A stretch of 64,000 nt of DNA, taken from NCBI RefSeq assembly GCF_003418935.1, contig NZ_QVMT01000003.1, forward strand, positions 124,001-188,000. The letters are read 5' to 3'. The translations under genes were made by a program, and so were the position numbers. The notes beneath the pieces were generated by a model. The model was not told the DNA's origin. It searched no databases and saw nothing but the letters and a program-made list of their open reading frames with translations. The stretch is from Emticicia sp. C21 (GTDB lineage: Bacteria > Bacteroidota > Bacteroidia > Cytophagales > Spirosomataceae). Positions within the stretch are counted from its first letter, which is position 1. Each line of letters starts with the position of its first letter. Of this stretch, positions 3,417 through 39,600 are shown piece by piece.

Positions 3417-3472
3417 GCGAATGAACATTGAGTGATTTAGTGATTAGGAAATTAATTATTTGAATACCGTAG

Positions 3473-7390: not shown

Positions 7391-8029
7391 TTCTTCCATT
7401 GATTTGGCTCTCTCTGAATAACAATTAAAGTCCTAAACCAATCAAACTATACAATTCCCCATTTATAAAGAGTGCTCTGTCAAAATTTGCTAAAGCATCT
7501 AACAAAGCACTGATAAAGCATATATCAAAGCAATGCAAAAGCACTTACTAAAGCATTGATAGTGCAGATAAATCAGAAATAAAATAACCTATTAAACCAA
7601 AAAAAGTATAATCTGTCAAAATTGATTAGCATTCAGGAATAAGCGTTCTTAAATGTAAAATAAAAATACATTTAAAGGGGCGCAACGTAGAGACAGGGCA
7701 ATGCTCTGTCTCTACAATTTAGGCAATCCAAAAAACGGGTATTTTAAAAAACTACATCAGTTCCGACTTTATCTTTAGGTGAAATTTCTGAAAGCTGACA
7801 ACCCAGACTGGCCGCCCACAACTGCCGTCCACCCAATAAATTTGCCCAAATATATGTCGTATAAAACAACATAAGACTTATAACCACCTCTTCAAGAGTA
7901 TGATTATTCCAAAAACCTCATCAAACACTTTGAAAACATAATACTAAGTGGGAAATTTAGGAGGATGCCCAGTTGAGAAGCCCAGTAAGGAGCACCCTGC
8001 CTTGGGTAACCATTTGCATAACTATTGAC
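7391..8029. other. Long non-coding gap with AAAGCA-rich and GTAGAGACAG palindromic segments
   Basis: I see no convincing gene here. The stretch at about 7490-7565 repeats the word AAAGCA six or more times at irregular intervals. A perfect 10-base inverted repeat GTAGAGACAG (7687-7696) / CTGTCTCTAC (7706-7715) belongs to a family seen again at 59367 and 62538-62679. The rest is AT-rich and unstructured by eye. Confidence 0.6.
7687..7715. repeat. Palindromic repeat, GAGAC family copy 1
   Basis: GTAGAGACAG and CTGTCTCTAC flank a 9-base GGCAATGCT centre. The same layout (GAGAC arms around a GCAATGC-like centre) recurs at 59367-59389, 62538-62574 and 62658-62679, so this is a dispersed repeat rather than a gene-specific site. 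Confidence 0.7.
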
Positions 8030-8383
8030 ATGAACGAAGAGAAAAAAAGAGCTGTAAGCATAATTAAAGTGACATCAGAAAAGGTGACCAATAAAGTGGG
8101 AACCTTTTTGAACAGGGACAGCATCGGAAGCCTGTTTGGAAGGATGATAGGCTATACTTATGAGCAGGTAGTTTCGAAATGTGGCAATGTTCAGATCACT
8201 CAAACTGCATCAGAAAAGGTTACCAATATGGTAGGAACCTTTTTGAAAAAAGACTGCGGTGGTTTCCAGATTATCAGTGTACCTACAATTCAAGCGGCAT
8301 CAAAAAAGGTTACCAATATGGTGGGAACCTTTTTGAAAAAAGAATGTGATGGTTTCCAGATTATCAATGTTCAAACCACTTAA
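8030..8383 (+). CDS. Repeat-containing ORF with premature stop (EKVTNMVGTFLKK units)
   Basis: 117 codons from the ATG at 8030; a TTG at 7973 is a less likely start. The protein carries three copies of a unit with the core SEKVTNxVGTFL. Copies 2-4 are exactly 90 bases apart in DNA (GCATCA at 8207, 8297, 8387). The fourth copy lies beyond the stop: TAA at 8381-8383 occupies the place of the CAA codon in copies 2 and 3, and the frame then stays open to TGA at 8447-8449. At DNA level each unit also has inverted arms (AAAAGGTT 8214-8221 / AACCTTTT 8236-8243), so the array may be structural rather than coding. I do not recognise the product. Confidence 0.4.
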   Translation: MNEEKKRAVSIIKVTSEKVTNKVGTFLNRDSIGSLFGRMIGYTYEQVVSKCGNVQITQTASEKVTNMVGTFLKKDCGGFQIISVPTIQAASKKVTNMVGTFLKKECDGFQIINVQTT

Positions 8384-8449
8384 ACGGCATCAGAAAAGGT
8401 TACCGATATGATGGGAACCTTTTTGAAAGAGAGCAGCCGTAATAAATGA
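8073..8449 (+). repeat. Four-copy hairpin-forming tandem repeat, 90-bp period in copies 2-4
   Basis: Units start near 8073, 8207, 8297 and 8387. They share the core AAAGGTTACCAATATGGT followed by (A/G)GGAACCTTTTTGAA. Arms AAAGGTT/AACCTTT can fold back on themselves in each unit. Copy 1 is more diverged and 134 bases from copy 2. The codon-length period suggests coding origin; the conserved arms suggest an RNA or DNA structure. Confidence 0.7.
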
Positions 8450-16413: not shown

Positions 16414-17640
16414 ATGAAACTATTACTCCTGCTCCTCTTTTTACCTGCCCTGATTTTTGCGCAAAGCAAAGAAGAACAACGTCTTCTGAAAAAAGCGGAT
16501 AAAATCCATGCACGTGCCTACACGGTAGATACCCATGCCGATGTGCCTATCAATATGATGGAAATCCCAGGCTTTGATATTGGTGCCAAACATAATTATG
16601 CCGAAGACGGCACGCAGATAGATTTCCCACGGATGAAAGAGGGGGGCATGGATGCCATGTTTTTTGCAGTGTACCTGGCACAAGGCAAACGAACTCCTGA
16701 AGGAGAAGCAGAGGCGAAAGCGAATGCATTGAAAATTTTTCAGTCTATACATGATGCCGTGAAGAAATACCCTGATATGGCCGAACTGGTTACTACGCCA
16801 AAAGAGGGATTTGCCACCCATAAAAAAGGAAAATTAGGGGTATTTATAGGCATGGAAAATGGGTGGCCTGTCGGGCACGATTTAGCAAATTTGAAATTAT
16901 ACTATGATTTAGGTCTACGCTATATTACGCTCTCTCATTCCTTTAATAATGATTTAAGCGATTCCTCCGGCGACCCTGAGGGAGGTGAGCATGGCGGGAT
17001 CAGCAAATTAGGTGAGGCATGTATAGCAGAGATGAACAAATTAGGCATTATTGTTGACGTATCGCATATATCAGATTCGGCTTTTTATGACGTGATGCGT
17101 TTGAGCAAAGCTCCTGTGCTTGCTTCACATTCCTCTTGTAGAGCGTTGAGCGATGTAAAAAGAAATATGACTGACGACATGATTAAACTCATGGCTTCAA
17201 AAGGAGGAGTTATTCAAATCAATTTCGTGTCTGATTTCCTGAGGAAGCCCTCAGAAGAAGTAATGATATCTATCAGGACCTTGCGTATGCAGGCCATGAA
17301 AGCTGATGCTACGCCAGAAGACAAACAGCGAATCAATGCCGAATTACGTCAGTTAAAATACAAATACCCTGGTGAAGCCCCGAGTGTGAAAACAGTGGTA
17401 GACCATATAGACCACGTAGTGCAGATAGCAGGGATAGACCATGTAGGTATTGGCATGGATATGGATGGAGGCAGTGATGTAGTAGGCTGCGAAGATGTAA
17501 GCAAAATCAAGAATGTAACCATTGAATTATTACGCCGGGGTTATTCAGAAAAAGACATACGTAAAATCTGGGGAGAAAATACAATGCGCGTATTGGCGGC
17601 TGCCGAAAAAGTGGCTGCAGATTTGAAAAAATCCCATTGA
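16414..17640 (+). CDS. Secreted membrane-dipeptidase-like protein (peptidase family M19)
   Basis: 408 residues with a signal peptide (LLLLLLFLPALIFAQ). Metal-binding motifs of renal/microsomal dipeptidases are present: DTHADVP near residue 39, the bridging-Glu motif GMENGWPVGHD, SHS(F)N, VSHIS and ASHSSCRAL, and the late DHVGIGMDMDG aspartate. It hydrolyses dipeptides, possibly D-amino-acid containing ones from peptidoglycan, in the periplasm. It is the last gene of the flippase/GT2 cluster; the gap after it is nearly 800 bases. Confidence 0.92.
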   Translation: MKLLLLLLFLPALIFAQSKEEQRLLKKADKIHARAYTVDTHADVPINMMEIPGFDIGAKHNYAEDGTQIDFPRMKEGGMDAMFFAVYLAQGKRTPEGEAEAKANALKIFQSIHDAVKKYPDMAELVTTPKEGFATHKKGKLGVFIGMENGWPVGHDLANLKLYYDLGLRYITLSHSFNNDLSDSSGDPEGGEHGGISKLGEACIAEMNKLGIIVDVSHISDSAFYDVMRLSKAPVLASHSSCRALSDVKRNMTDDMIKLMASKGGVIQINFVSDFLRKPSEEVMISIRTLRMQAMKADATPEDKQRINAELRQLKYKYPGEAPSVKTVVDHIDHVVQIAGIDHVGIGMDMDGGSDVVGCEDVSKIKNVTIELLRRGYSEKDIRKIWGENTMRVLAAAEKVAADLKKSH

Positions 17641-17747
17641 TAAAAAAAATATGTTTTTTCTTAGAATTGCAAAAGCGGTTTAGTATAGTACAATTTTAAC
17701 TTTGAGCAATACAATCTTATATTCTTAAATTAAAATGAAACCAATAG

Positions 17748-17779
17748 TTGACTTTTATTCAATAAAACCTTTATATTTG
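17748..17779 (+). promoter_or_regulatory. Candidate distal promoter TTG-N21-TATATTTG
   Basis: TTG (17748-17750) and an exact TAnnTTTG (17772-17779) are 21 bases apart. If used for susC it would give a leader of about 650 bases that includes the dyad at 17882. Confidence 0.4.
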
Positions 17780-17881
17780 TCAAATTATAACATTTTCAAT
17801 AATGCTTATAATAAAATGAACTTCCAATAAGTTAATATATAAAAATACTAAGAAAAATTTGGAAGCATTATTCAAAGTGTT

Positions 17882-17910
17882 TAATATTGTATCTAATTGA
17901 TACAATATTA
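17882..17910. promoter_or_regulatory. Perfect 12-bp dyad, operator or RNA hairpin
   Basis: TAATATTGTATC, a 5-base TAATT centre, then GATACAATATTA. The arms match perfectly. No T-run follows, so a classic terminator is unlikely. The half-site TTGTATC/GATACAA recurs in looser form at 34154-34180. Confidence 0.65.
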
Positions 17911-18303
17911 GCTATTGACTAACTGAATGATTATTATCCTTACGTGATTATAATGGCAAAACCTCAAGTACTGACCTGATTTTCGGCTTTCATAGCTCAA
18001 CGTACTTCATCAAACAATTAATTCACAATTTAGAAAATTCCCACAGCAGAAATATAAACGTAGAAATTTTTTGCCCTTACCGGGATAGCATATTTTAAAG
18101 AAAAAATTGCAGGATAGAGATGATTCACAACCTAATTTTTTTAAAAAACATCTTGATTCCGAACTTTCTATATTCCACAGCTTCATAATTAATAGTAGGT
18201 TTTTCACGAAATAAGTTTTTTTTGATTTTGCAGAATTTTATTTGGCATAAATAAGATGTAAGTTTATTGTGCATATTTAAATTTATAAAAAAAACGTGAA
18301 AAA

Positions 18304-18335
18304 TTTGGAAAATTTGGAGTGTGTTTCTATAATTG
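18304..18335 (+). promoter_or_regulatory. Candidate proximal promoter of first susC
   Basis: TTTG (18304-18307), 20 bases, then TATAATTG (18328-18335), one mismatch from TAnnTTTG. The second susC has the same arrangement at 23768-23798 with a similar TTTGGAAAA start, which supports function. Confidence 0.55.
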
Positions 18336-18437
18336 TACCGAATACACTTATTAAGATAAATCAAAAAAATCTTGATATAGTATAAAATCTTTAATTACAA
18401 TTTATTTTTTACTTTTTTTTTTAACTAAAACAAAACT

Positions 18438-21400
18438 ATGAAACAAAACTACTTTGTGCCCATACGGGGTGCTCTGATTTGTGGACTACTTTGGATGATG
18501 TCTATTGTAGCGTTTGCACAAAAATCTGTTAGTGGTAAAGTAAGTGATTCAAAAGGAGAGGGCGTTCCGGGTGCCAGTGTTTCCGTAAAAGGAACTACTA
18601 CAGGTACAATTTCAGATGCAGAAGGTAACTTCAAAATTAACGCTCCGAATGCAGGCGGTACATTAGTAATCAGCTCAATTGGTTACAAAACAGTAGAAAT
18701 TGCCATAGGTAATCAAAGTACTATTAATGTGACACTAGAAGACGATGCTGCAAGCCTTGATGAGGTTGTTGTAACTGGTTATTCAGTTGATAAAAGACGT
18801 GAGTCAACCGGTGCTATCTCAACTGTGAAAACGAAAGACCTTACAACAGTTCCTTCAGCTAGTGTTGAGCAACAATTACAAGGTAGAGTAGCAGGTTTGA
18901 CAGTTGTAACAACGAGCCAGCCAGGTTCTGGTAGCCAGATTCGTGTACGTGGTTTTGGTGCATTCGGTGGTAACGAACCCTTAACAATCGTTGATGGGTT
19001 GCCTAGTGATGCAGGTTTCTTAAACCCGGAAGATATTGAGTCTACTACAGTATTGAAAGATGCTTCTGCTGCTTCAATCTATGGAGCAAGAGCTGCCAAT
19101 GGTGTAATTATCTATACTACGAAGAAAGGCAAGAAAAATGCTAAAAAATTGAACGTTACTTATGATGGTGTGTTTGGTTTTACAGATCCGGGTAAAGGTC
19201 AGCAAATGATGAATCCACAAGATCAGGCAGATTGGACATGGACTGCACTTAAAAACTCTGGTGCTCCATTATCTCACCCACAATATGGTACGGGCGCAAC
19301 TCCTATCATTCCTGACTATCTTAAAGTAGGAAATAGAAGTGGAGTTGTTGGTACTATTGATCTGGAAGCAGAGAGATTAAAATATAACATTACTGGCCCA
19401 ACAATCGGCGATTACTATCAGGTAATTAAAGCTAATAAAGAAGGTACTGACTGGTATAAAGCATTGACTCAAACCGGTACAATTCAAAGACATTCATTAG
19501 GTTTTGAAGGTGGTGGTGATGCTTCGCGTTTCTATGTAGGATTATCATTGCAAGACCAACAAGGTATTTTGCCTAGCCAGAGAGCAAAGCGTATTGCTAT
19601 GCGTGTAAATTCTGAGTTTGATCTTTTCAAAAACGTAAGAATTGGTGAAAATATCCAGTTGACTTACCTTCAGATCTTAGGTCGTCAGGGTGGTAATAAT
19701 GGTCTTCAGTCATCACAAGATGAAAACGACATTCTTGGTGCATTCAGATCTCCAACTATTCTTCCTGTATATGACGAATTTGGCGGATATGCCGGTACAA
19801 CTGCGCTTGGTTTTGGTCAGGGTTCAAACCCTGTTGCTAACCAGATGGCAGGAAAACTAAACAGAAACTTTAATGCTATAGCCTCAGGTAACTTCTATAT
19901 TGAAGTTGATCCGATCAAAGATCTGACATTACGTTCTTCAATTGGTGGACTTTATAACAACTTTTATGGCTGGGGATATGGTCGCCCAATTTATGAAACT
20001 CTTGAAAATAAAGGTGTAGTATGGTCTTATAACGAAAATGGTGGTTTCAGATTAGGCTGGACTTTTACGAATACAATCAATTATAAGAAGAAATTTGGTA
20101 TTCATAATATAGATTTATTAGCTGGCCAAGAGGCTCTTAATACCGGACATGGTAAAAACCTTTCGGCTGACGGTCGTGCACCATTCTCTGGTGACCCTAA
20201 CTATATTACTATATCTACGTTGGATATTAGAAACCCTGCAAATAGTACTAAAGAAAACGGTGTTAATTTCAACTCATATTTTGGTAGAGCTATCTATAGC
20301 TTCAAAGATAAATATATCATAACAGGGGTTATCAGACGCGACGGTTCATCTCGATTTGGTTCAAACAACAGATACGGTGTATTCCCTGCGGTTTCTGCTG
20401 CATGGAGACTTTCAGATGAATCATTTATGAAAGGTCTTGCCTGGGTAACTGATTTAAAAATCAGAGGGGGTTATGGTACAATGGGTAACTCAAATAACGT
20501 TTCACCTGCCAACCAGTTTAACCTTTATGAGCAAAACGTTGGTACTTCAGGTTATGATATCAATGGTACAAACGCCGGAATCGTAGGTGGATTCAGACAA
20601 TCAAGAATTGGTAACCCAAATGCGAAATGGGAAACCAGTATTACCAAAAACATTGGTTTTGACGGATCATTCCTGAAAGGTAAATTAGATGTTATCTTAG
20701 ATTTGTGGCAAAAAGATACCAAAGACTTATTGTATCAATTACCAATTACACAGACAGTGGGTGGGGCTACTGCTCCGTCAGTGAACGTAGGTACAATGGT
20801 AAACAAAGGTATTGACATTCAGGTAATTACAAGAGGTAAATTCGGTAGCGAAGTAGGATACGAATTTGATGTGACAGGTAGTTTCCTTCATAACGAAATC
20901 ACTGAAATCGGTGGTGGTCTTACATACTTACAAGATGTGAATCCTGGTTTCAGAGGTGTAAACCCTATTCGTAACCAATTGGGTCGTTCATTGTCTTCTT
21001 TCTTTGGATACCAGGTAGTTGGTTTATTCCAGACACAAGAGGAAGTTGACCAGGCTTTGAAAACTACATCTACGCCTGGTGCTGCCATTCCAACGCAAAC
21101 TGGTGCAGGTCTTGGTCGTTTCCGCTATGCTGACTTAAATGGTGATGGTAATATTACTGCAGATGACCGTACTTATTTAGGTAGCCCGGTTCCTAAATTT
21201 ACAGGTGGTTTGAACTTCAGACTTACTTACAAGAATTTTGAACTACTATCTTATTTCTATACTTCAATTGGTAACAAAATCTTTAATATCTCTAAAAGAT
21301 TTACAGATTTTTATCCATTATTTGCAGGTGCTGCTATCTCTGAGCGTGTTAAAAATTCTTGGTCTCCATCAAACAGAGATACTGATATTCCACGTTTCGA

Positions 21401-21695
21401 ACAAAATGATGGTTTCAGTACTGGTTCGCAATCAAGCAGCTTCTATGTTGAAGATGGATCATACCTAAGATTCCAAAACTTGTCACTTGCTTACAATTTG
21501 CCAACAACACTTGCCAACAAAATGAAGTTAAGCAGAGTTCGTGTTAACGCCGCTGTTAATAACCTATTCACAGTGACTAAATATGGTGGCTTGGACCCTC
21601 AGGTAGCAGGTGCTGCTGATACCAACTTTGGTGTAGACTTGGGTAACTTCCCAATGACTCGTCAGGTAACTTTTGGTTTAAGTGTTGGATTCTAA
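18438..21695 (+). CDS. SusC/RagA-type TonB-linked outer membrane protein
   Basis: 1085 residues. Signal peptide (about 1-28, ending IVAFAQ), then the carboxypeptidase-regulatory-like domain (GKVSDSKGEGVPGASV, 32-110), the plug domain (about 115-240, with LQGRVAGLTV, RVRGFGAFGGNEPLTIVDG and LKDASAASIYGARAANGVI) and a 22-strand type barrel ending in ...QVTFGLSVGF with terminal Phe. It forms the energy-dependent uptake channel for a glycan or peptide ligand held by the SusD lipoprotein encoded 24 bases downstream. The first ~45 residues are almost identical to the second SusC in this window, while the rest is clearly diverged. No SusE/F or glycosidase is adjacent. Confidence 0.95.
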   Translation: MKQNYFVPIRGALICGLLWMMSIVAFAQKSVSGKVSDSKGEGVPGASVSVKGTTTGTISDAEGNFKINAPNAGGTLVISSIGYKTVEIAIGNQSTINVTLEDDAASLDEVVVTGYSVDKRRESTGAISTVKTKDLTTVPSASVEQQLQGRVAGLTVVTTSQPGSGSQIRVRGFGAFGGNEPLTIVDGLPSDAGFLNPEDIESTTVLKDASAASIYGARAANGVIIYTTKKGKKNAKKLNVTYDGVFGFTDPGKGQQMMNPQDQADWTWTALKNSGAPLSHPQYGTGATPIIPDYLKVGNRSGVVGTIDLEAERLKYNITGPTIGDYYQVIKANKEGTDWYKALTQTGTIQRHSLGFEGGGDASRFYVGLSLQDQQGILPSQRAKRIAMRVNSEFDLFKNVRIGENIQLTYLQILGRQGGNNGLQSSQDENDILGAFRSPTILPVYDEFGGYAGTTALGFGQGSNPVANQMAGKLNRNFNAIASGNFYIEVDPIKDLTLRSSIGGLYNNFYGWGYGRPIYETLENKGVVWSYNENGGFRLGWTFTNTINYKKKFGIHNIDLLAGQEALNTGHGKNLSADGRAPFSGDPNYITISTLDIRNPANSTKENGVNFNSYFGRAIYSFKDKYIITGVIRRDGSSRFGSNNRYGVFPAVSAAWRLSDESFMKGLAWVTDLKIRGGYGTMGNSNNVSPANQFNLYEQNVGTSGYDINGTNAGIVGGFRQSRIGNPNAKWETSITKNIGFDGSFLKGKLDVILDLWQKDTKDLLYQLPITQTVGGATAPSVNVGTMVNKGIDIQVITRGKFGSEVGYEFDVTGSFLHNEITEIGGGLTYLQDVNPGFRGVNPIRNQLGRSLSSFFGYQVVGLFQTQEEVDQALKTTSTPGAAIPTQTGAGLGRFRYADLNGDGNITADDRTYLGSPVPKFTGGLNFRLTYKNFELLSYFYTSIGNKIFNISKRFTDFYPLFAGAAISERVKNSWSPSNRDTDIPRFEQNDGFSTGSQSSSFYVEDGSYLRFQNLSLAYNLPTTLANKMKLSRVRVNAAVNNLFTVTKYGGLDPQVAGAADTNFGVDLGNFPMTRQVTFGLSVGF

Positions 21696-21719
21696 TCTGA
21701 GTTAAATTAAAATAAGACA

Positions 21720-23441
21720 ATGAAAAAAATAAAAATATTTATTTCCAGCGTTATCCTGTTTTCGGGGATGTATGCTTGTAGTGATAGCTTTCTAGACGTG
21801 CCCCCAACGGGTACGCTTTCTAAAGACCAGTTAACCAGTACTGCCGGCTTAGAAGGATCTTTAATTGCAGCTTACGCTCAGTTAAGTGCCTTGAGTCAAA
21901 CGCACTCTGGTCCATCAAACTGGTTGATCGGTAGTATCAGAGGTGGGGATGCTAATAAAGGAACTGACCCTGGTGATGGTACTGAAATGATTCCTGTTCA
22001 AAGATATGAGTATGTATCTACTGATGCCGTTGCAGCAAACGTTTACCAAAGTTATTTTGATGGCGTTGCCAGAGCCAATTCAGTATTAGCTCTTTTAAAA
22101 GAAGCTCAGGCAAGTGTTAAAGATGATGTTAAAGCCAGAATTACCGCTGAAGCTCGTTTTATCAGAGGCCACTTTTATTTCCAATTGAAGAGAAACTTCA
22201 ATATGGTTCCTTACGTAGATGAAAATATCGGTGTAGGTAACGGAATTGAGAAAGTAAAAAATGATCAGGATTTATGGCCAAAAATCGAGGCTGATTTCAA
22301 AGCAGCTTATGATGCTTTACCAGAAACATCTTCTTCGGTAGGCCGTGCCAATAAATGGGCTGCAGGTGTATACTTGGCAAAAACATATTTGTATCAAAAG
22401 AAATATGCAGAAGCAAAAGCACTTTTCGACCTGATTATTGCTAATGGTAAAACAACTGGTGGTAAAAAATACGCACTACTACCTAAATATTCTGACCTAT
22501 ACCGTGTTGCTAACGATAATAACGCAGAATCAGTTTTTGCTGTTCAGGCAACGGTAAAATCAGGTAACGGAAACAACGCCAATGGTGATTTACAATTGAA
22601 CTTTATCCAAGGTGTTGACCCAGGTACTTGTTGTGGATTCTTCCAACCATCATTTGAGTTTGTAAACTCATACCGTACTGATGCTAATGGTTTACCATTA
22701 TTGGATAATTCTTACAATAGCCCTGCCAATGCTGTTAAGACAGATATGGGTATTAAATCTGATCAGCCTTTTACGCCAGACGCTGGTCCTTTAGACCCAA
22801 GAATAGACCATTCAATAGGTCGTAGAGGTATTCCTTTCTTGGATTGGGGTCCGCACACAGGTTTCAGTATGATTCGTAACCAACCGAATGGTGGTCCTTA
22901 TTCTCCTAAGAAATATATATTTACTAAGGCAGAAAAAGCTGCAGGTTTGACAGAAACAGGTGGTTGGGGACACCAGACATACAATGCTTACAACGTAACA
23001 ATTATCAGGTTTGCAGATGTTTTATTGATGGCTGCAGAATGTGAAATTGAGGTTGGTTCATTAGCAAAAGCACTTGAATATACAAACATGGTAAGAGGTA
23101 GAGCTAGCAATGCAGCTGACTTTGTAATGCTAGATGGTGCGCCTGCTGCTAATTACAAAATTGGATTGTATAGTTCTTTCCCTACAAAAGAATATGCCAG
23201 ATCAGCTGTTAGATTTGAGAGAAGAATAGAGCTTGGAATGGAAGGATACCGTTTCTATGATTTAGTTCGTTGGGGTGAAGATGTTGAAGCACTTAACCGT
23301 TACCTGAAATATGACCAAGCGTTATTGCCAGGTTCTTTAGGAGGTGCTACTTATACAGCAAATAAAGCTTTGTTCCCAATACCACAAGCTCAGATTGACC
23401 TTGTAGGTGCTAGTATATTGAAACAAAATCCTGGATATTAA
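21720..23441 (+). CDS. SusD/RagB-type surface glycan-binding lipoprotein
   Basis: 573 residues. Lipoprotein signal with lipobox cysteine at about 20 (GMYAC), then the SusD fold: N-terminal TPR-like helices (ITAEARFIRGHFYFQLKR is a family hallmark) and a C-terminal region with TIIRFADVLLMAAECEIEVG and the RFERRIELGMEGYRFYDLVRWG motif. It caps the partner SusC barrel at the cell surface and delivers ligand. It is co-transcribed with susC (24-base gap). Two hairpin terminators follow, so the second pair is a separate transcription unit. Confidence 0.95.
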   Translation: MKKIKIFISSVILFSGMYACSDSFLDVPPTGTLSKDQLTSTAGLEGSLIAAYAQLSALSQTHSGPSNWLIGSIRGGDANKGTDPGDGTEMIPVQRYEYVSTDAVAANVYQSYFDGVARANSVLALLKEAQASVKDDVKARITAEARFIRGHFYFQLKRNFNMVPYVDENIGVGNGIEKVKNDQDLWPKIEADFKAAYDALPETSSSVGRANKWAAGVYLAKTYLYQKKYAEAKALFDLIIANGKTTGGKKYALLPKYSDLYRVANDNNAESVFAVQATVKSGNGNNANGDLQLNFIQGVDPGTCCGFFQPSFEFVNSYRTDANGLPLLDNSYNSPANAVKTDMGIKSDQPFTPDAGPLDPRIDHSIGRRGIPFLDWGPHTGFSMIRNQPNGGPYSPKKYIFTKAEKAAGLTETGGWGHQTYNAYNVTIIRFADVLLMAAECEIEVGSLAKALEYTNMVRGRASNAADFVMLDGAPAANYKIGLYSSFPTKEYARSAVRFERRIELGMEGYRFYDLVRWGEDVEALNRYLKYDQALLPGSLGGATYTANKALFPIPQAQIDLVGASILKQNPGY

Positions 23442-23471
23442 TATTCATTCGGATTAGTTTATTTTATCAGA

Positions 23472-23498
23472 AGAGATGGCATCTTGCCATCTCTTTTT
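23472..23498 (+). terminator. Rho-independent terminator after first susD
   Basis: AGAGATGGCA (23472-23481), TCT loop, TGCCATCTCT (23485-23494) and TTTT. The stem is closely similar to the terminator after the second susD at 29501. Confidence 0.88.
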
Positions 23499-23611
23499 GA
23501 TTTATAAACTAGTGTGTTAAAGTTCTTGATGGAAAAGGTATTCTATTGCATGGTAATGGATGTAATAATAGATAGGTAAATCTATAACAGGATACGAAAA
23601 TTTAGTGTTGT

Positions 23612-23650
23612 AAAAAAGGAGAAGTGTCTGAAATATACTTCTCCTTTTTT
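23612..23650 (+). terminator. Second hairpin terminator before the second susC unit
   Basis: AAAAAAGGAGAAGT (23612-23625) pairs with ACTTCTCCTTTTTT (23637-23650), a 14-bp stem with A-run and T-run, so it could work in both directions. Confidence 0.8.
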
Positions 23651-23767
23651 ACGTATAGTGTATAAGTTAATAATTTTTTTAAGTATTTTTAAAAAAAATC
23701 ATAAATCACTTATTAATAGATTAAAAAAATTAAATGGAGATTAAAATTTAGAAAATAAATAGAATAA

Positions 23768-23798
23768 TTTGGAAAAATTAAAGAATAACTCTAATTTG
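23768..23798 (+). promoter_or_regulatory. Candidate promoter of second susC
   Basis: TTTG (23768-23771), 20 bases, then TAATTTG (23792-23798), a -7 box one T short of consensus. Spacing and the TTTGGAAAA context match the first susC promoter. A start here gives a ~640-base leader. Confidence 0.5.
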
Positions 23799-23850
23799 TG
23801 TCGATTATAGTTACAAAGACAAAATATAATCTGTTTTTTAGCTATAAAAG

Positions 23851-24443
23851 TACTAACCTATGAAATATATCTACGTTTTGCTTTGAAAGCATAATATTTG
23901 AAACCTGATATAGTTCAGAGAATAAATTAACCTAATTGTAAAACTAATACTAAGAAAAGCCTATGGGATAAATTTCCTTGTATTATTCTACTGCGTTTTA
24001 ATAAATCTCTACACATCTTACCTCAGAATGCCTATTTATTCTGAATACTATAAAACCTAATTCTGACTGAATACTATAAAAAGCGTATGAAAGAAATTTT
24101 CCTATTATCATTATTGGCGAGCCCTTCGCTCTGATGTGTTTCAGAACGACTGAATGCTTATATTTCTATTTTGCTGATAACCAATTTAAAAAGCGTATGA
24201 AAGATTAATCTCTTTCTTCTATCTATAATATACTTTACCTGTGCTCTTAAGTACAGGTTGATTTTGTGTAATTAAGAATTTATTTTTTATCAATATTTTC
24301 TTTGCTGTTACCTGTTTTTTAAAAAGCGTATGAAAGATTAATTTCTTTCCCTATCAGTCATGTACTTTACTTGTGCTTATTAAGTACAGGCTGATTTTGT
24401 ATAATTTATAATTTATTTTTTTAACCAAATTAAAACAAAGCGT
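23851..24443 (+). repeat. Degenerate tandem copies of the susC start region in its leader
   Basis: ATG codons preceded by similar AT-rich context occur at 23860, 23963, 24087, 24197, 24330 and finally 24444 (the real start), spaced 103, 124, 110, 133 and 114 bases. The last four share AAAGCGTATGAAAGA. The decoy frames close at once: MKYIYVLL, MG, a 15-residue hydrophobic peptide, MKD and MKD. Copies at 24197 and 24330 also share a downstream stem-loop (24238-24257 and 24370-24390) and the GATTTTGT(G/A)TAATT stretch. A 15-base direct repeat CTGAATACTATAAAA lies at 24041 and 24067. Confidence 0.75.
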
Positions 24444-27400
24444 ATGAAAGAAAACTACTTTGTACCTATAAGGGGTACTCTGATTTGTGGTATGCTATGG
24501 CTTATGTCCATTGTAGCGTTTGCACAAAAATCTGTTAGTGGTAAAGTAAGTGATGCAAAAGGGGAGGCTATTCCAGGTGCCAGTATTACCTTAAAAGGTA
24601 CTACAACAGGAACAATCACAGATGCTGAGGGAAATTACAAAATCAATGTTCCTAATTCCGGGGGTATCTTGGTAGTAAGTTCAATTGGTTATAGAACCCA
24701 GGAAGTAGCCGTTGGTAACCAATCTACATTAAGCTTAGTTTTAGAATCAGACGAAGCCGCGCTAGATGAAGTGGTTGTAACAGGATATGGTACTCAGTCA
24801 AAAAGAGATATTACCGGAGCTGTAACAACCGTAAATGCAAAAGATTTACAATCAGTACCCGCTACTACCTTTGCTCAACAATTGCAAGGACGAGCCTCGG
24901 GTCTTAGTATCGTAAACGATGCAACACCGGGTGGTAACGCAACTGTTCGTATCCGTGGTTTTGGTACAATCGGTAATAACGATCCTCTATTTATTATTGA
25001 TGGTATTCCTACAGAAAACCAGGGAAACCTTAACCCGAATGATATTGAAACCATACAAATTCTGAAAGACGCTTCTGCTTCATCAATTTATGGGTCTCGC
25101 GCGGCTAATGGTGTGGTAATTATCACGACAAGAAAAGGGAAAATAGGCCCTGCTAAAATTAATTTTTCTGCGTACTATGGCACACAAAAAGTGTCAGAAA
25201 ACGTAGAGTCTTTAAATGCAGCTGAATTAGGTAAATACCTTTATTTGGCAGATAAATATGCCGGAAAAACTCCATCGCATGGTCAATACACTTTTGGCCC
25301 TAACGGTGAGGTGTCAATTCCTGCGTACGTATTCCCAAGTGCAGGTAAAGAGGGAGCAGCCAATACAAACCCGGCTTTATACTCATTGACTCCAGACAAT
25401 ATTTATCCTATCACTAAATCAGCAGATACTTACTGGTGGGGTGAAGTTACACAAACAGCACCTATCCAGAATTATCAATTGACAGCCAGTGGTGGTTCAG
25501 AAAACAGCCGTTATGCGCTATCAGTAGGGTATTTCTCTCAAGATGGGGTTGTTAAATTTATCAGCTACGACCGCTATACTTTGCGTTCGAACACCGAGTT
25601 TTCGGCAATTAACAAGAAACTAAGAGTAGGCGAAAACTTCACAGTATCATTTGATAACCGTAAAGGTGGTTTCGGTAATAACGAAGAGCAGAATGCTGTT
25701 TCTGGTTCTTACAAACACCATCCTTTGCTACCTGTATATGATATTAATGGGTTCTTTGCAGGCTCACGTGGAGCTAATCTGGGTAATAACTCAAACCCTT
25801 ATGCAACTATGGCACGCGCTGCTGATAATAGAAGATACCGTTTAAGAGGTTTTGGTAATATCTACGGTGAATACGATATTCTTCCATTCCTGACTTTCAA
25901 AACAAGCTTAGGTCTTGACATCACTACTGAAAATGGTAAATACATTGGTCGTGCAAACCCTGAGTATATTGAGGGTAGCTTCAACAACGGTTCAGAATCA
26001 AACACCAGTTACGACTACCAATGGGTATTCCAGAATACTTTATCGTTCAGCAAAATATTCAACACAGTACATAAAGTTGATGCTTACGTGGGTACTGAGG
26101 CTATCAAGCAATTTGGTGAGTATTTCGGTGCAACACGTAACGGTTACGCTTTTGAAACTCTACCAATCATCAGCTACTTAGACTTGGGAGATCCTACCAG
26201 AGTAGGTAACTATGGTAGAGTTGGTAATGACTATACTTTGTTCTCACAATTCGGTAAATTCAACTATGCTTACAACGATAAGTATTTATTCCAGGCTATT
26301 ATCAGAAATGACGCTTCTTCTCGTTTCTTATCAGCTTCCCGTAATGCGCTCTTTCCTGCGTTTAGTTTAGGTTGGCGTTTATCGGAAGAGAAATTCATTT
26401 CTACAAACCTTCCGTTTGTCAGCGATTTGAAAGTCCGTTTTGGCTGGGGTAAAACAGGTAACCAGAAAATTGGTAACTACAATGCTTACACTACGTATCG
26501 TTCTGATATTTGGCATGCAGGTTATCCGATTGATGGTAATCAGACTACTCCTACAATCGGTTATGATACACAGGCATTCGGTAACCCTAATGCGAAGTGG
26601 GAGGCAACTACTTCAACAAACTTTGGTATAGATGCTTCTTTGTTCAAAGGGAAATTAGGCTTTGAAATAGATTTCTGGAAACGTGTGACAACCGATATGT
26701 TGTTTACTACACCTTTGACCTTCACTGTCGGTGATGCTGCTGCGCCATCTTTCAACGTAGGACAAATGACCAATAAAGGTCTTGATTTGGGGGTCAACTA
26801 TAAGAGTAATATCAATAATTTTCGTTATAGTATTGCTGCCAACTTGTCAACTTACAAAAACACAGTTGATAAACTAGATGCCAGCCCTAATACCCGCTAC
26901 TTCGGATACGGCTCTCGTGTACCTGCTGTTACTTTAACACAAGCCGGCTTACCGATTTCATCATTCTATGGTTACCAGGTAGTAGGTCTCTTCCAGTCAC
27001 AATCAGAAGCTGATGCATGGCCTAAGTATGGAGATTACAACAAACCTGGTAAATTTAAAATGGCCGATGTTAACGGTGATGGTGTAATCACAGATGCTGA
27101 CCGTACAATCATCGGTAATCCTCACCCTGATTTCGTATATGGGTTGAACCTGAGTCTTGGTTGGAAAGCATTTGATTTGACTATCTTCTGCAACGGAACA
27201 CAAGGTAATGATGTATTTAATTACACGCGTTATTTCTCTGATTTCAATACATTCCAGGGTAACCGCTCAAAACGCGCTTTGTATGATGCATGGCAGCCAA
27301 CCAATACTTCCGGCACTGTACCTATTATGGATGCTAACGACCAGGTATCAAGCCGTCCGTCAAGCTATTTCATCGAAGATGGTTCATATTTCCGTATCAA

Positions 27401-27620
27401 AAACGTGCAGTTGACTTACTCCCTTCCAGCCAGAATTGCCGGTAAAACTGCTCTGGACAACGCGCAAATTTATCTGCAAATGCAAAACTTAGCTACGTTT
27501 ACGAAGTATACTGGTCTTAACCCTGAGATTCAGACAGGAACTGATAATACTTTAGGTTTTGATGGTGGATATATGCCAGTATCAAGAACATTTATTGTAG
27601 GTGTTAACTTTGGTTTCTGA
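24444..27620 (+). CDS. SusC/RagA-type TonB-linked outer membrane protein (second copy)
   Basis: 1058 residues. Layout as in the first copy: signal peptide to about 28, carboxypeptidase-regulatory-like domain (32-110), plug (LQGRASGLSI, RIRGFGTIGNNDPLFIIDG, LKDASASSIYGSRAANGVV) and barrel ending in Phe (TFIVGVNFGF). It is the transport channel partner of the SusD encoded 45 bases downstream. Start at 24444 is chosen because the N-terminus is nearly identical to the first SusC. A run of 45 bases is identical between 24510-24554 and 18504-18548. The leader before it is unusual, with repeated decoy starts. The ligand is unknown. Confidence 0.95.
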   Translation: MKENYFVPIRGTLICGMLWLMSIVAFAQKSVSGKVSDAKGEAIPGASITLKGTTTGTITDAEGNYKINVPNSGGILVVSSIGYRTQEVAVGNQSTLSLVLESDEAALDEVVVTGYGTQSKRDITGAVTTVNAKDLQSVPATTFAQQLQGRASGLSIVNDATPGGNATVRIRGFGTIGNNDPLFIIDGIPTENQGNLNPNDIETIQILKDASASSIYGSRAANGVVIITTRKGKIGPAKINFSAYYGTQKVSENVESLNAAELGKYLYLADKYAGKTPSHGQYTFGPNGEVSIPAYVFPSAGKEGAANTNPALYSLTPDNIYPITKSADTYWWGEVTQTAPIQNYQLTASGGSENSRYALSVGYFSQDGVVKFISYDRYTLRSNTEFSAINKKLRVGENFTVSFDNRKGGFGNNEEQNAVSGSYKHHPLLPVYDINGFFAGSRGANLGNNSNPYATMARAADNRRYRLRGFGNIYGEYDILPFLTFKTSLGLDITTENGKYIGRANPEYIEGSFNNGSESNTSYDYQWVFQNTLSFSKIFNTVHKVDAYVGTEAIKQFGEYFGATRNGYAFETLPIISYLDLGDPTRVGNYGRVGNDYTLFSQFGKFNYAYNDKYLFQAIIRNDASSRFLSASRNALFPAFSLGWRLSEEKFISTNLPFVSDLKVRFGWGKTGNQKIGNYNAYTTYRSDIWHAGYPIDGNQTTPTIGYDTQAFGNPNAKWEATTSTNFGIDASLFKGKLGFEIDFWKRVTTDMLFTTPLTFTVGDAAAPSFNVGQMTNKGLDLGVNYKSNINNFRYSIAANLSTYKNTVDKLDASPNTRYFGYGSRVPAVTLTQAGLPISSFYGYQVVGLFQSQSEADAWPKYGDYNKPGKFKMADVNGDGVITDADRTIIGNPHPDFVYGLNLSLGWKAFDLTIFCNGTQGNDVFNYTRYFSDFNTFQGNRSKRALYDAWQPTNTSGTVPIMDANDQVSSRPSSYFIEDGSYFRIKNVQLTYSLPARIAGKTALDNAQIYLQMQNLATFTKYTGLNPEIQTGTDNTLGFDGGYMPVSRTFIVGVNFGF

Positions 27621-27665: not shown

Positions 27666-29462
27666 ATGAAAAGTAATAATATTGTTAAAATATTTCTGGC
27701 TGCAGGTCTCACAGTTGGTTTTGCTATTGGTTGCAGTGATGATTTCCTGACCCGCGAGCCACAAGCCCAGTATAGCCCTACTTCATTAAAAACTGCCAAA
27801 GGTGTAGAAGGTGTATTATTGGGAGCCTACGCTATGATTGACGGAACAGGTCTTGACGGCCAGGACCCATGGATGAATGATATTCATAACTGGGTTTTTG
27901 GAGGAGTACCTTCTGACGATGCTTATAAAGGAACCGATGCTGGTGACCAACCGGAAGAATCATTTATTGAAAGATGGGACTTCCAGCCTACCAACAACCA
28001 TATCCGTAACAAATGGAGAGGTTTATTCAAAGGCGTAGCTCGTACAAACGACGTTATCAATACACTAAAAGATGTAAAAGATATAAGCGAAGCCAGAAGA
28101 GCGCAGATTTTAGCAGAAGCTAAATTCCTGAGAGCCTTATTCCATTTTGAAGCAAAGAAAATGTGGAAGAATATTCCTTACATTGATGATGCTATTTTTA
28201 ATCTGGATAACCTTGAAAGCACCAAAGTTCCTGTTGATCCTCAGGCCTGGGCTAAAATCGAAAAAGATCTGGCCGACGCGGCAGCTGTATTACCTGTAAC
28301 TCAGGCGCAGGTGGGTCGCCCTACAAAATGGGCTGCGAAAGGTCTTCAGGCTAAAGCTTTGATGTACCAGGGATTTGATGTAAATACAGGTGCAGCTAAT
28401 GCGGCTAAATTAACAGCAGCAAAAGCTATTTTGGAAGAAATTATGAATAGTGGCAAATACAGACTGGTTGATCTTTACAGAGATAACTTTGACGCCAGCA
28501 CCCGTAACAATGCCGAATCAATCTTTGAAGTACAATTCGCTTCTTCAAGTGCAACTGGTGATGCTGCTAACCAGGGTGTAGGTCTGGCTCACCCTTATGC
28601 TTCTCCCTGGGGATGTTGCGGTTTCTACCAACCATCACAAAACCTGGTAAATGCGTTCAAAACGGGGGCTGATGGTTTGCCATTGATTGATACTTTTAAT
28701 GATTCCGACGTGAAAAACGACCAGGGCTTAAAACTGGAAGACCCTTACACACCGTATGAGGGTATGTTAGATCCTCGCTTAGACCATACTGTTGGTCGTC
28801 GTGGTATTTTGTTCATCGACTACAAAATTCATAATGTAGACTTCATCCGTGACCAGACTTATGCAGGACCGTATTCTCCAAGAAAACATATCCCTTCTAA
28901 AGCATTTACAGGTGTAAACGGTTGGGGGAATCTAACTAGCAACAACTACCGCTTATTACGTTATGATATGATTTTGCTTTGGTTGGCTGAATGCGAAGTT
29001 GAAATCGGAAGCCTTGAAAGAGCCAGAGAACTGGTAAATATGATCAGAACCCGTGCAGCAAACCCTGCAGGTTTTGTTCAGAAAGCTACCCAAGGTGCTA
29101 CCCGTGATGCTTATACGCTTGTATTTGATGCACAGGGAAATCCGGTTCCTGCTGCCAATTACAATATCAAAAACTATACTACTCCCTGGACAGACAAAGC
29201 TTTAGCGCGTAAGGCCGTGCGTTTTGAAACCCGCTTAGAGTTTGGTATGGAAGGCCACCGCTTCTTCGACCTGTCAAGATGGGGAATAGCAGCCGATGTA
29301 TTGAACAAATACAACGCAGTAGAATCAAACAAACGTGTGTATAAGAAAGGGGCGGTATTTACCAAAGGTAAAAACGAATTCTATCCGATACCACAGGAGG
29401 CTATAGATCGCTCTGAAAAAGATGGTAAAGCAACTTTAGAGCAAGATCCGGCTTATAAATAA
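27666..29462 (+). CDS. SusD/RagB-type surface glycan-binding lipoprotein (second copy)
   Basis: 598 residues. Lipobox cysteine near residue 23 (VGFAIGC), TPR-like region with ILAEAKFLRALFHFEAKK, and C-terminal RLLRYDMILLWLAECEVEIGSLERA and RFETRLEFGMEGHRFFDLSRWG motifs. It pairs with the preceding SusC. Cysteine pair WGCCGFYQPSQNLVNAF has a counterpart (GTCCGFFQPSFEFVNSY) in the first SusD, so the two proteins belong to one subfamily. A strong terminator follows at 29501. Confidence 0.95.
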   Translation: MKSNNIVKIFLAAGLTVGFAIGCSDDFLTREPQAQYSPTSLKTAKGVEGVLLGAYAMIDGTGLDGQDPWMNDIHNWVFGGVPSDDAYKGTDAGDQPEESFIERWDFQPTNNHIRNKWRGLFKGVARTNDVINTLKDVKDISEARRAQILAEAKFLRALFHFEAKKMWKNIPYIDDAIFNLDNLESTKVPVDPQAWAKIEKDLADAAAVLPVTQAQVGRPTKWAAKGLQAKALMYQGFDVNTGAANAAKLTAAKAILEEIMNSGKYRLVDLYRDNFDASTRNNAESIFEVQFASSSATGDAANQGVGLAHPYASPWGCCGFYQPSQNLVNAFKTGADGLPLIDTFNDSDVKNDQGLKLEDPYTPYEGMLDPRLDHTVGRRGILFIDYKIHNVDFIRDQTYAGPYSPRKHIPSKAFTGVNGWGNLTSNNYRLLRYDMILLWLAECEVEIGSLERARELVNMIRTRAANPAGFVQKATQGATRDAYTLVFDAQGNPVPAANYNIKNYTTPWTDKALARKAVRFETRLEFGMEGHRFFDLSRWGIAADVLNKYNAVESNKRVYKKGAVFTKGKNEFYPIPQEAIDRSEKDGKATLEQDPAYK

Positions 29463-39365: not shown

Positions 39366-39600
39366 ACCATTGAGTGATTGTGTGAATGAGTGATTTAGTG
39401 ATTATTTTTAATCGTCTTGAACTGTGATTTACTGGATTAACCTGATTGTTGTGATTTACATTTGAGTTAGACATCAGCGAAATACTTAAATCATTTCAAT
39501 CAGAGTTTAAGATAATAATCATTCATTCACTAAATCACTAATTCACTCAATCACTAAATATTTTTTAACAACATTATCCATTTTATTAACCTTATCAAGA
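39366..39600. repeat. Intergenic heptad-rich inverted repeat (GTGATTTAGTGATT)
   Basis: TTGAGTGATTGTGTGAATGAGTGATTTAGTGATTA-type wording at 39370-39405 faces its reverse complement at 39519-39560 (ATTCACTAAATCACTAATTCACTCAATCACTAAAT wording, quoted only in part elsewhere). The same words occur at 3427-3446 and 34492-34531. The function is unknown; it may be a simple-sequence spacer family. Confidence 0.5.

Follow-up and report, generated by a model that had tools for sequence, protein, structure and literature searches.

Control of susC translation by small RNAs (sRNAs) and titration of sRNAs by decoy sites are both already described. In Bacteroides thetaiotaomicron, according to the available text of PMC11697453, susC mRNAs are kept from being translated by FopS sRNAs that bind next to the start codon; these form a family of 14 members with the seed at the 5' end, which acts on several PULs and whose structure is deposited in Rfam. 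In the available part of PMC4098024, ChiX of Escherichia coli and Salmonella targets chiP and is titrated by a decoy in the chb mRNA, and CsrB-type RNAs carry multiple sites for CsrA. The 64-kb stretch of the Emticicia sp. C21 genome analysed here (the window, to which positions refer unless a contig is given) holds a susC gene, susC2, whose leader carries copies of its own start region. We favour the reading, at a probability of roughly 0.6, that a dedicated trans-encoded sRNA targets this leader at several sites and that the extra sites act as a sink in cis. Like FopS and GibS, as far as the available text of PMC11697453 describes them, the candidate sRNA is antisense to a susC start-codon region in the same phylum and would regulate the translation of a transporter; unlike FopS as portrayed there, it has one locus, its seed adjoins the terminator, and its presumed target is a single mRNA bearing two or three strong extra sites. 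With ChiX/chb (PMC4098024, available part) the locus would share an mRNA site that titrates an sRNA repressing an outer-membrane uptake protein, but that decoy lies in another mRNA whereas the presumed decoys here are in tandem within the regulated one. The multivalent titration by repeats recalls the CsrB-type RNAs of the same source, which bind a protein while the presumed ligand here is RNA. Tandem start-site mimics in a regulated leader are a layout for which we did not find a described case in the literature searched. If the reading is right, this would be an independent case of sRNA control of SusC, in a distant Bacteroidota lineage and with the tandem layout in cis.

susC2 (24444 to 27620, forward strand) encodes a SusC/RagA TonB-linked outer-membrane protein (TIGR04056 at 878.6 bits, together with Pfam domains) and is the presumed regulated gene. 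Its partner susD2 (27666 to 29462, forward strand; SusD_RagB and SusD-like_3) is presumably co-transcribed. A first pair, susC1/susD1, lies 5' of them at 18438-23441. Between susD1 and the promoter-like site of susC2 there is a perfect 16-bp inverted repeat with a terminal T-run (23610-23652), probably the terminator of the first operon, which agrees with separate transcription of susC2. The promoter-like site, TTTG-N20-TAATTTG at 23768-23798 of the forward strand, is identified against what we take to be the Bacteroidota promoter consensus; both boxes and their spacing are kept in all four species with the array. It predicts a 5' end of the susC2 mRNA at about 23805 and a leader of about 639 nt. 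Sigma-70-type sites show no excess between 23500 and 24600 (3, against 7.6 in shuffles). The preliminary description had assigned to susC2 some 500 leader bases more than to susC1: among the 30 susC paralogs read the array is indeed confined to susC2, while the length difference depends on promoter-like sites, that of susC1 judged by eye.

The leader has ATGs at 23860, 23963, 24087, 24197 and 24330 ahead of the true start at 24444, with spacings of 103, 124, 110, 133 and 114, exactly where they were first reported. The last four positions also have the common sequence ascribed to them, AAAGCGTATGAAAGA, exact at 24080, 24190, 24323 and 24437; these three leader sites and the susC2 start are its only four perfect copies in the 6.64-Mb genome, and no gene start other than that of susC2 matches the 15-mer with up to one mismatch. 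All on the forward strand, the array comprises site 1 (23854-23867), distantly similar to the start region; site 2 (23957-23970), a degenerate relative reading AAGCCTATGGGATA; sites 3 (24081-24094), 4 (24191-24206) and 5 (24324-24339), the strong ones, placed 114-357 nt 5' of the susC2 start codon; and the true start region (24438-24451). The picture of five repeated copies therefore holds for 24087, 24197 and 24330, which have the 15-mer of the true start, and has to be relaxed for 23963 and 23860. Likeness between units is confined to a short core of 15-30 nt, the units otherwise differing, with units 4 and 5 additionally alike over 42 nt at 90%; Tandem Repeats Finder reports no array over the leader. 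Since the leader contains four more ATGs (24028, 24134, 24154, 24360), the shared core is the signal and not the number of ATGs. The best upstream match to the susC2 start region (-9 to +12) is 18/21 against a null mean of 12.6, a value equalled in none of 200 Markov-resampled leaders.

Start-region copies of this kind are no general habit of susC genes. The genome has 57 stretches matching TIGR04056, 33 above the family cut-off, of which 30 were read; in 700 nt upstream compared with 200 resampled leaders, several starts being first-ATG guesses, susC2 alone among the 30 paralogs has upstream copies and the other 29 stay at p of at least 0.10. The same method covered 15 of 19 loci of SusC relatives (the start of L118 is uncertain, and L124, L125, L128 and L129 were omitted because their N-terminus is unmatched). 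It retrieves the array at three Emticicia loci (p 0.00-0.01, 200 resamplings) and finds no start copies at the 12 others tested (p of at least 0.26), so that an old trait of this SusC lineage is likewise rejected. Of the 222 family genomes, four show the two-copy pattern.

A search of related genomes reveals the same array in three other Emticicia species, BO119, 21SJ11W-3 and E. agri 17J42-9 (G001, G002 and G008; the window genome is G000), whose leaders can be aligned over most of their length. Outside the sites, 29% of the leader columns are invariant among the four species. The invariant columns number 14/14 at site 5 and at the start, 13/14 at sites 3 and 1, and 10/14 at site 2. At site 4 the window genome and E. 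agri have an identical core, BO119 lacks the site and 21SJ11W-3 has it in decayed form; strong leader sites number three in the first two species and two in the others. Pairwise identity of the array species at four-fold degenerate positions of susC2 is 48-58%, against which the preservation of sites 3 and 5 disfavours tandem duplication by slippage, one of the two origins initially put forward. The leader repeats are real and not neutral debris. That they might nevertheless be neutral relics of a tandem duplication of the start region, as the long likeness of units 4 and 5 and the variable copy number would allow, is hardly credible with sites 3 and 5 near-invariant in a leader otherwise conserved at 29%.

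The other origin put forward, a translational control array, stands in so far as the leader looks regulatory and belongs to the second susC only; capture of ribosomes by mini-ORFs is not its best-supported agent. The decoy frames are short, as described, encoding MKYIYVLL, MG, MKEIFLLSLLASPSL, MKD and MKD, with 24197 and 24330 both reading MKD-stop. Start-site mimics loading or capturing ribosomes on such mini-ORFs could tune susC2 translation without any sRNA, and wherever sites 3-5 occur they do retain the start codon with its flanking sequence. MKD-stop is found at site 5 in all four species and at site 4 in two; the remaining peptides vary from species to species, so that a conserved leader peptide, as in a uORF attenuator, is not found among the four apart from these MKD-stops. 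Site 1 lacks its ATG in 21SJ11W-3 despite its conserved columns, one unit is missing altogether in another species, and the core of sites 3-5 is exactly complementary to the invariant part of the co-occurring candidate sRNA. We consider this alternative improbable, the more so as it leaves the antisense copy in an sRNA-like locus unexplained.

This locus emerges from the 14-mer AAGCGTATGAAAGA, which has one additional noncoding copy in each of the four array genomes, all four belonging to one homologous intergenic locus; further copies in G001, G007 and G010 lie inside open frames. A reversed-pattern control yields 0-2 extra 14-mers per genome, so one extra copy is not rare and the weight lies on synteny and conservation. 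The candidate sRNA gene occupies about 90,735-91,050 of contig C1 in the window genome, on the forward strand, opposite to the motif and divergent from the adjoining histidine-kinase gene. In its promoter-like segment 77% of columns do not vary, compared with 29% in the variable body. The 3' part, GTTAGATTCTACATGAATCTTTCATACGCTTGTAGC, is nearly invariant with one variable column and is followed by the terminator; it includes a 13-nt seed invariant in the four species, and the invariant CUUUCAUACGCUU is exactly complementary to the array core. The terminator has an 11-pair stem conserved in the four species with one U-A/A-U compensatory pair, a covariation that is weak on its own (84 of 500 shuffles are equally good). 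The locus is free of open frames reaching 100 codons. Judged from sequence, promoter-like segment and intrinsic terminator delimit an independent intergenic unit, and the locus has the appearance of a gene for a trans-encoded sRNA some 284-303 nt long; we infer that this RNA is made, pairs with susC2 and represses it by pairing. A known RNA family was rejected for the leader region and for the sRNA, all matches at E <= 1 being below cut-off (one in 17500-25000, eight on the sRNA loci); none of the hits obtained on the four sRNA loci at this E-value was recognisable as an Rfam model of FopS or GibS.

At E <= 1e-60 the adjoining histidine kinase (PF06580) has matches in those same four of the 11 genus genomes, and the next gene looks by eye like a LytTR-type response regulator. 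Between the kinase (end at 4552 of L204) and the sRNA promoter, ATCAT-like repeats are seen by eye in at least three of the four species; they are possible binding sites for the neighbouring regulator.

The longest runs complementary to the candidate sRNA on both strands of the window are those of sites 4 and 5 (16 nt each) and of site 3 and the start (14 nt each); the next run is 13, and a reversed-sRNA control reaches at most 12. At the susC2 start codon the antisense complementarity thus extends over 14 nt, and sites 3-5 offer 14-16 complementary nt outside the initiation region, as expected for decoys. Duplex energies computed along the window in 5-nt steps put the three leader sites first and the start fourth at -21.4, tied with one other position; in the leader, 100 or more shuffled seeds average -12.7 with a best value of -21.6, against -23.3 for the real seed. 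When local folding is included (site 1 and site 2 of G000 and G002 left out), 15 of 16 scored sites in the four species range from -6.9 to -19.6, one E. agri site reaching only -2.8. The background averages between -3.0 and -6.3 depending on the genome, and no single background window falls below -9.8. With local folding the true start outbinds every leader site in all four species, which counts against the idea that the leader sites are the better traps. A GAAAGA/UCUUUC hairpin can form 3' of the ATG at sites 4 and 5, whose predicted accessibility is mostly under the leader median; most of the seed is likewise of low predicted accessibility in three of the four species.

Pairing with the sRNA is not the sole constraint on the leader, since site 1 is conserved though a poor sRNA match. 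This site, together with the hairpin of sites 4 and 5, which sRNA pairing does not need, could suggest that core and hairpin are sites for an RNA-binding protein and that the copy in the sRNA serves as a decoy or a second ligand. Given where its promoter-like segment and terminator lie, the sRNA strand carries the complement of the core and not the same sequence; this speaks against the protein-site explanation, to which we give very little credit. Two stem-loops, of nine pairs each, are confirmed in two of the units: one with a T-rich tail between sites 4 and 5 (24237-24258, forward strand), which is terminator-like, and one at 24370-24390. The latter falls within a stem-loop between site 5 and the start (24353-24395, forward strand) in which 88.6% of cells are paired among the four species. 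The co-variation earlier claimed for the stem-loops is seen there as two pairs changed on both sides, but 31 of 500 shuffles do equally well, so this structure is only suggestive. Terminator-like hairpins number 3 in the scanned stretch against 0.2 expected; the hairpins between sites being weakly terminator-like, prematurely ended leaders could become free-standing multi-site sponges.

In the favoured reading, CUUUCAUACGCUU in the invariant 3' segment of the sRNA would pair with AAGCGUAUGAAAG over the susC2 start codon, which should block ribosome entry. The two or three strong upstream copies, with the degenerate ones, would bind the sRNA without directly blocking the susC2 ribosome because they lie too far upstream. 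They would form a sink in cis that is transcribed ahead of the start, so that each susC2 mRNA would absorb several sRNAs and would go unrepressed until the sRNA:mRNA ratio passes a threshold. The least certain part of this model is the sign, namely that repression is weakened and not strengthened by the extra sites. Its most specific form, in which the tandem mimics evolved as a multivalent sink that soaks up a dedicated anti-start-codon sRNA and gives the transporter a sharp translational threshold, is put forward tentatively.

The same sRNA could act with the opposite sign, the extra sites rendering the susC2 mRNA hypersensitive: several bound sRNAs would raise the local density or recruit a nuclease, with silencing or destruction at low sRNA. 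All evidence of pairing between sRNA and leader fits this equally well, as does the singularity of the 15-mer at the susC2 start. It has to be taken seriously as a rival, since in each of the four species the start is the strongest predicted binder and would not be out-competed by the leader sites. Against it, the strong sites are too distant for a direct ribosome block and no processing element is identified; we regard it as unlikely. The natural variants, with three or two strong sites, and the array-free relatives provide a compact test of site number against sRNA threshold.

Four of the 11 genus genomes carry the sRNA locus (E <= 4.9e-47), and they are the four with the array; the other seven give nothing better than 0.0117. 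susC2 itself is present in six, two of which (G003, G010) have neither array nor sRNA and start susC2 with AACTATGAAACAAAA, as susC1 does. The simplest inference is that the start of the array species, including E for Q at the third codon, is derived and arose jointly with the sRNA. In a tree of 9 of the 11 genomes the four array genomes group together with support 1.000, the one grouping used because the outgroup row is a wrong protein and G005 a long branch. As the four form one clade, the co-occurrence of array and sRNA counts as one evolutionary event. An sRNA directed against the array-free susC2 starts of G003 and G010 was rejected, the single other match in each being the start of another gene. 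The susC2 orthologs of these two genomes (L154 and L155; about 400 nt before position 1501) also have long intergenic leaders, with the common stem-loop-like stretches CTCGTAAAGTATTCCCACGAG and CTCTCTTCTTCGAGTTATAGG; long susC2 leaders may be general where the array is not.

An RNA covariance model of the sRNA gives four matches at E <= 1.5e-22 in 222 family genomes, one strong match per array genome, the next being at 3.4e-5. At E <= 0.01 there are matches in 70 of the 222 genomes and five in G000, the weak ones mostly terminator-based where inspected. Distant homologs were rejected on the three weak matches inspected by alignment, which rest mainly on the terminator; two of them (G173, G009) retain UUCAUA in the seed. 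L229 (G009:C25:58890-58977), in an array-free Emticicia, and L220 (G173:C3:147052-147136), in another genus, carry CUUUCAUA or CUUCAUAC right before the terminator, which is anti-start-codon-like; they are possible distant relatives of the sRNA with another seed. A different conserved 3' end, TTTAGTTAAAAAGTAAAATAAATTGTAATTAAAGCAAAA followed by a C/G-rich stem and a T-run, is present among the model matches in three of the four array genomes (L236, G000:C1:215079-215173, reverse strand; L237, G008:C52:14509; L238, G001:C1:690160) and may mark another sRNA or a gene end that they have in common.

The genome of Emticicia sp. C21 has 32 GCGTATGAAA sites, of which 30 were read as candidates for other targets. 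Further plausible gene starts are L188, with 12 complementary nt, and L201 and L185, with 11. L188 (G000:C12:582599-582608) belongs to a 305-aa gene that resembles a sugar-binding protein by eye and whose start reads AAGCGTATGAAA; it is a possible second target of the sRNA. Elsewhere in the window, a 90-bp tandem repeat of 2.6 copies (8198-8428) lies mostly within a predicted ORF (7973-8383). Intergenic 8-bp tandem repeats (ATTGAGTG and TCACTAAA-like) are found at 3427-3445, 39369-39403 and 39517-39559, those around 39369-39559 running in opposite senses.
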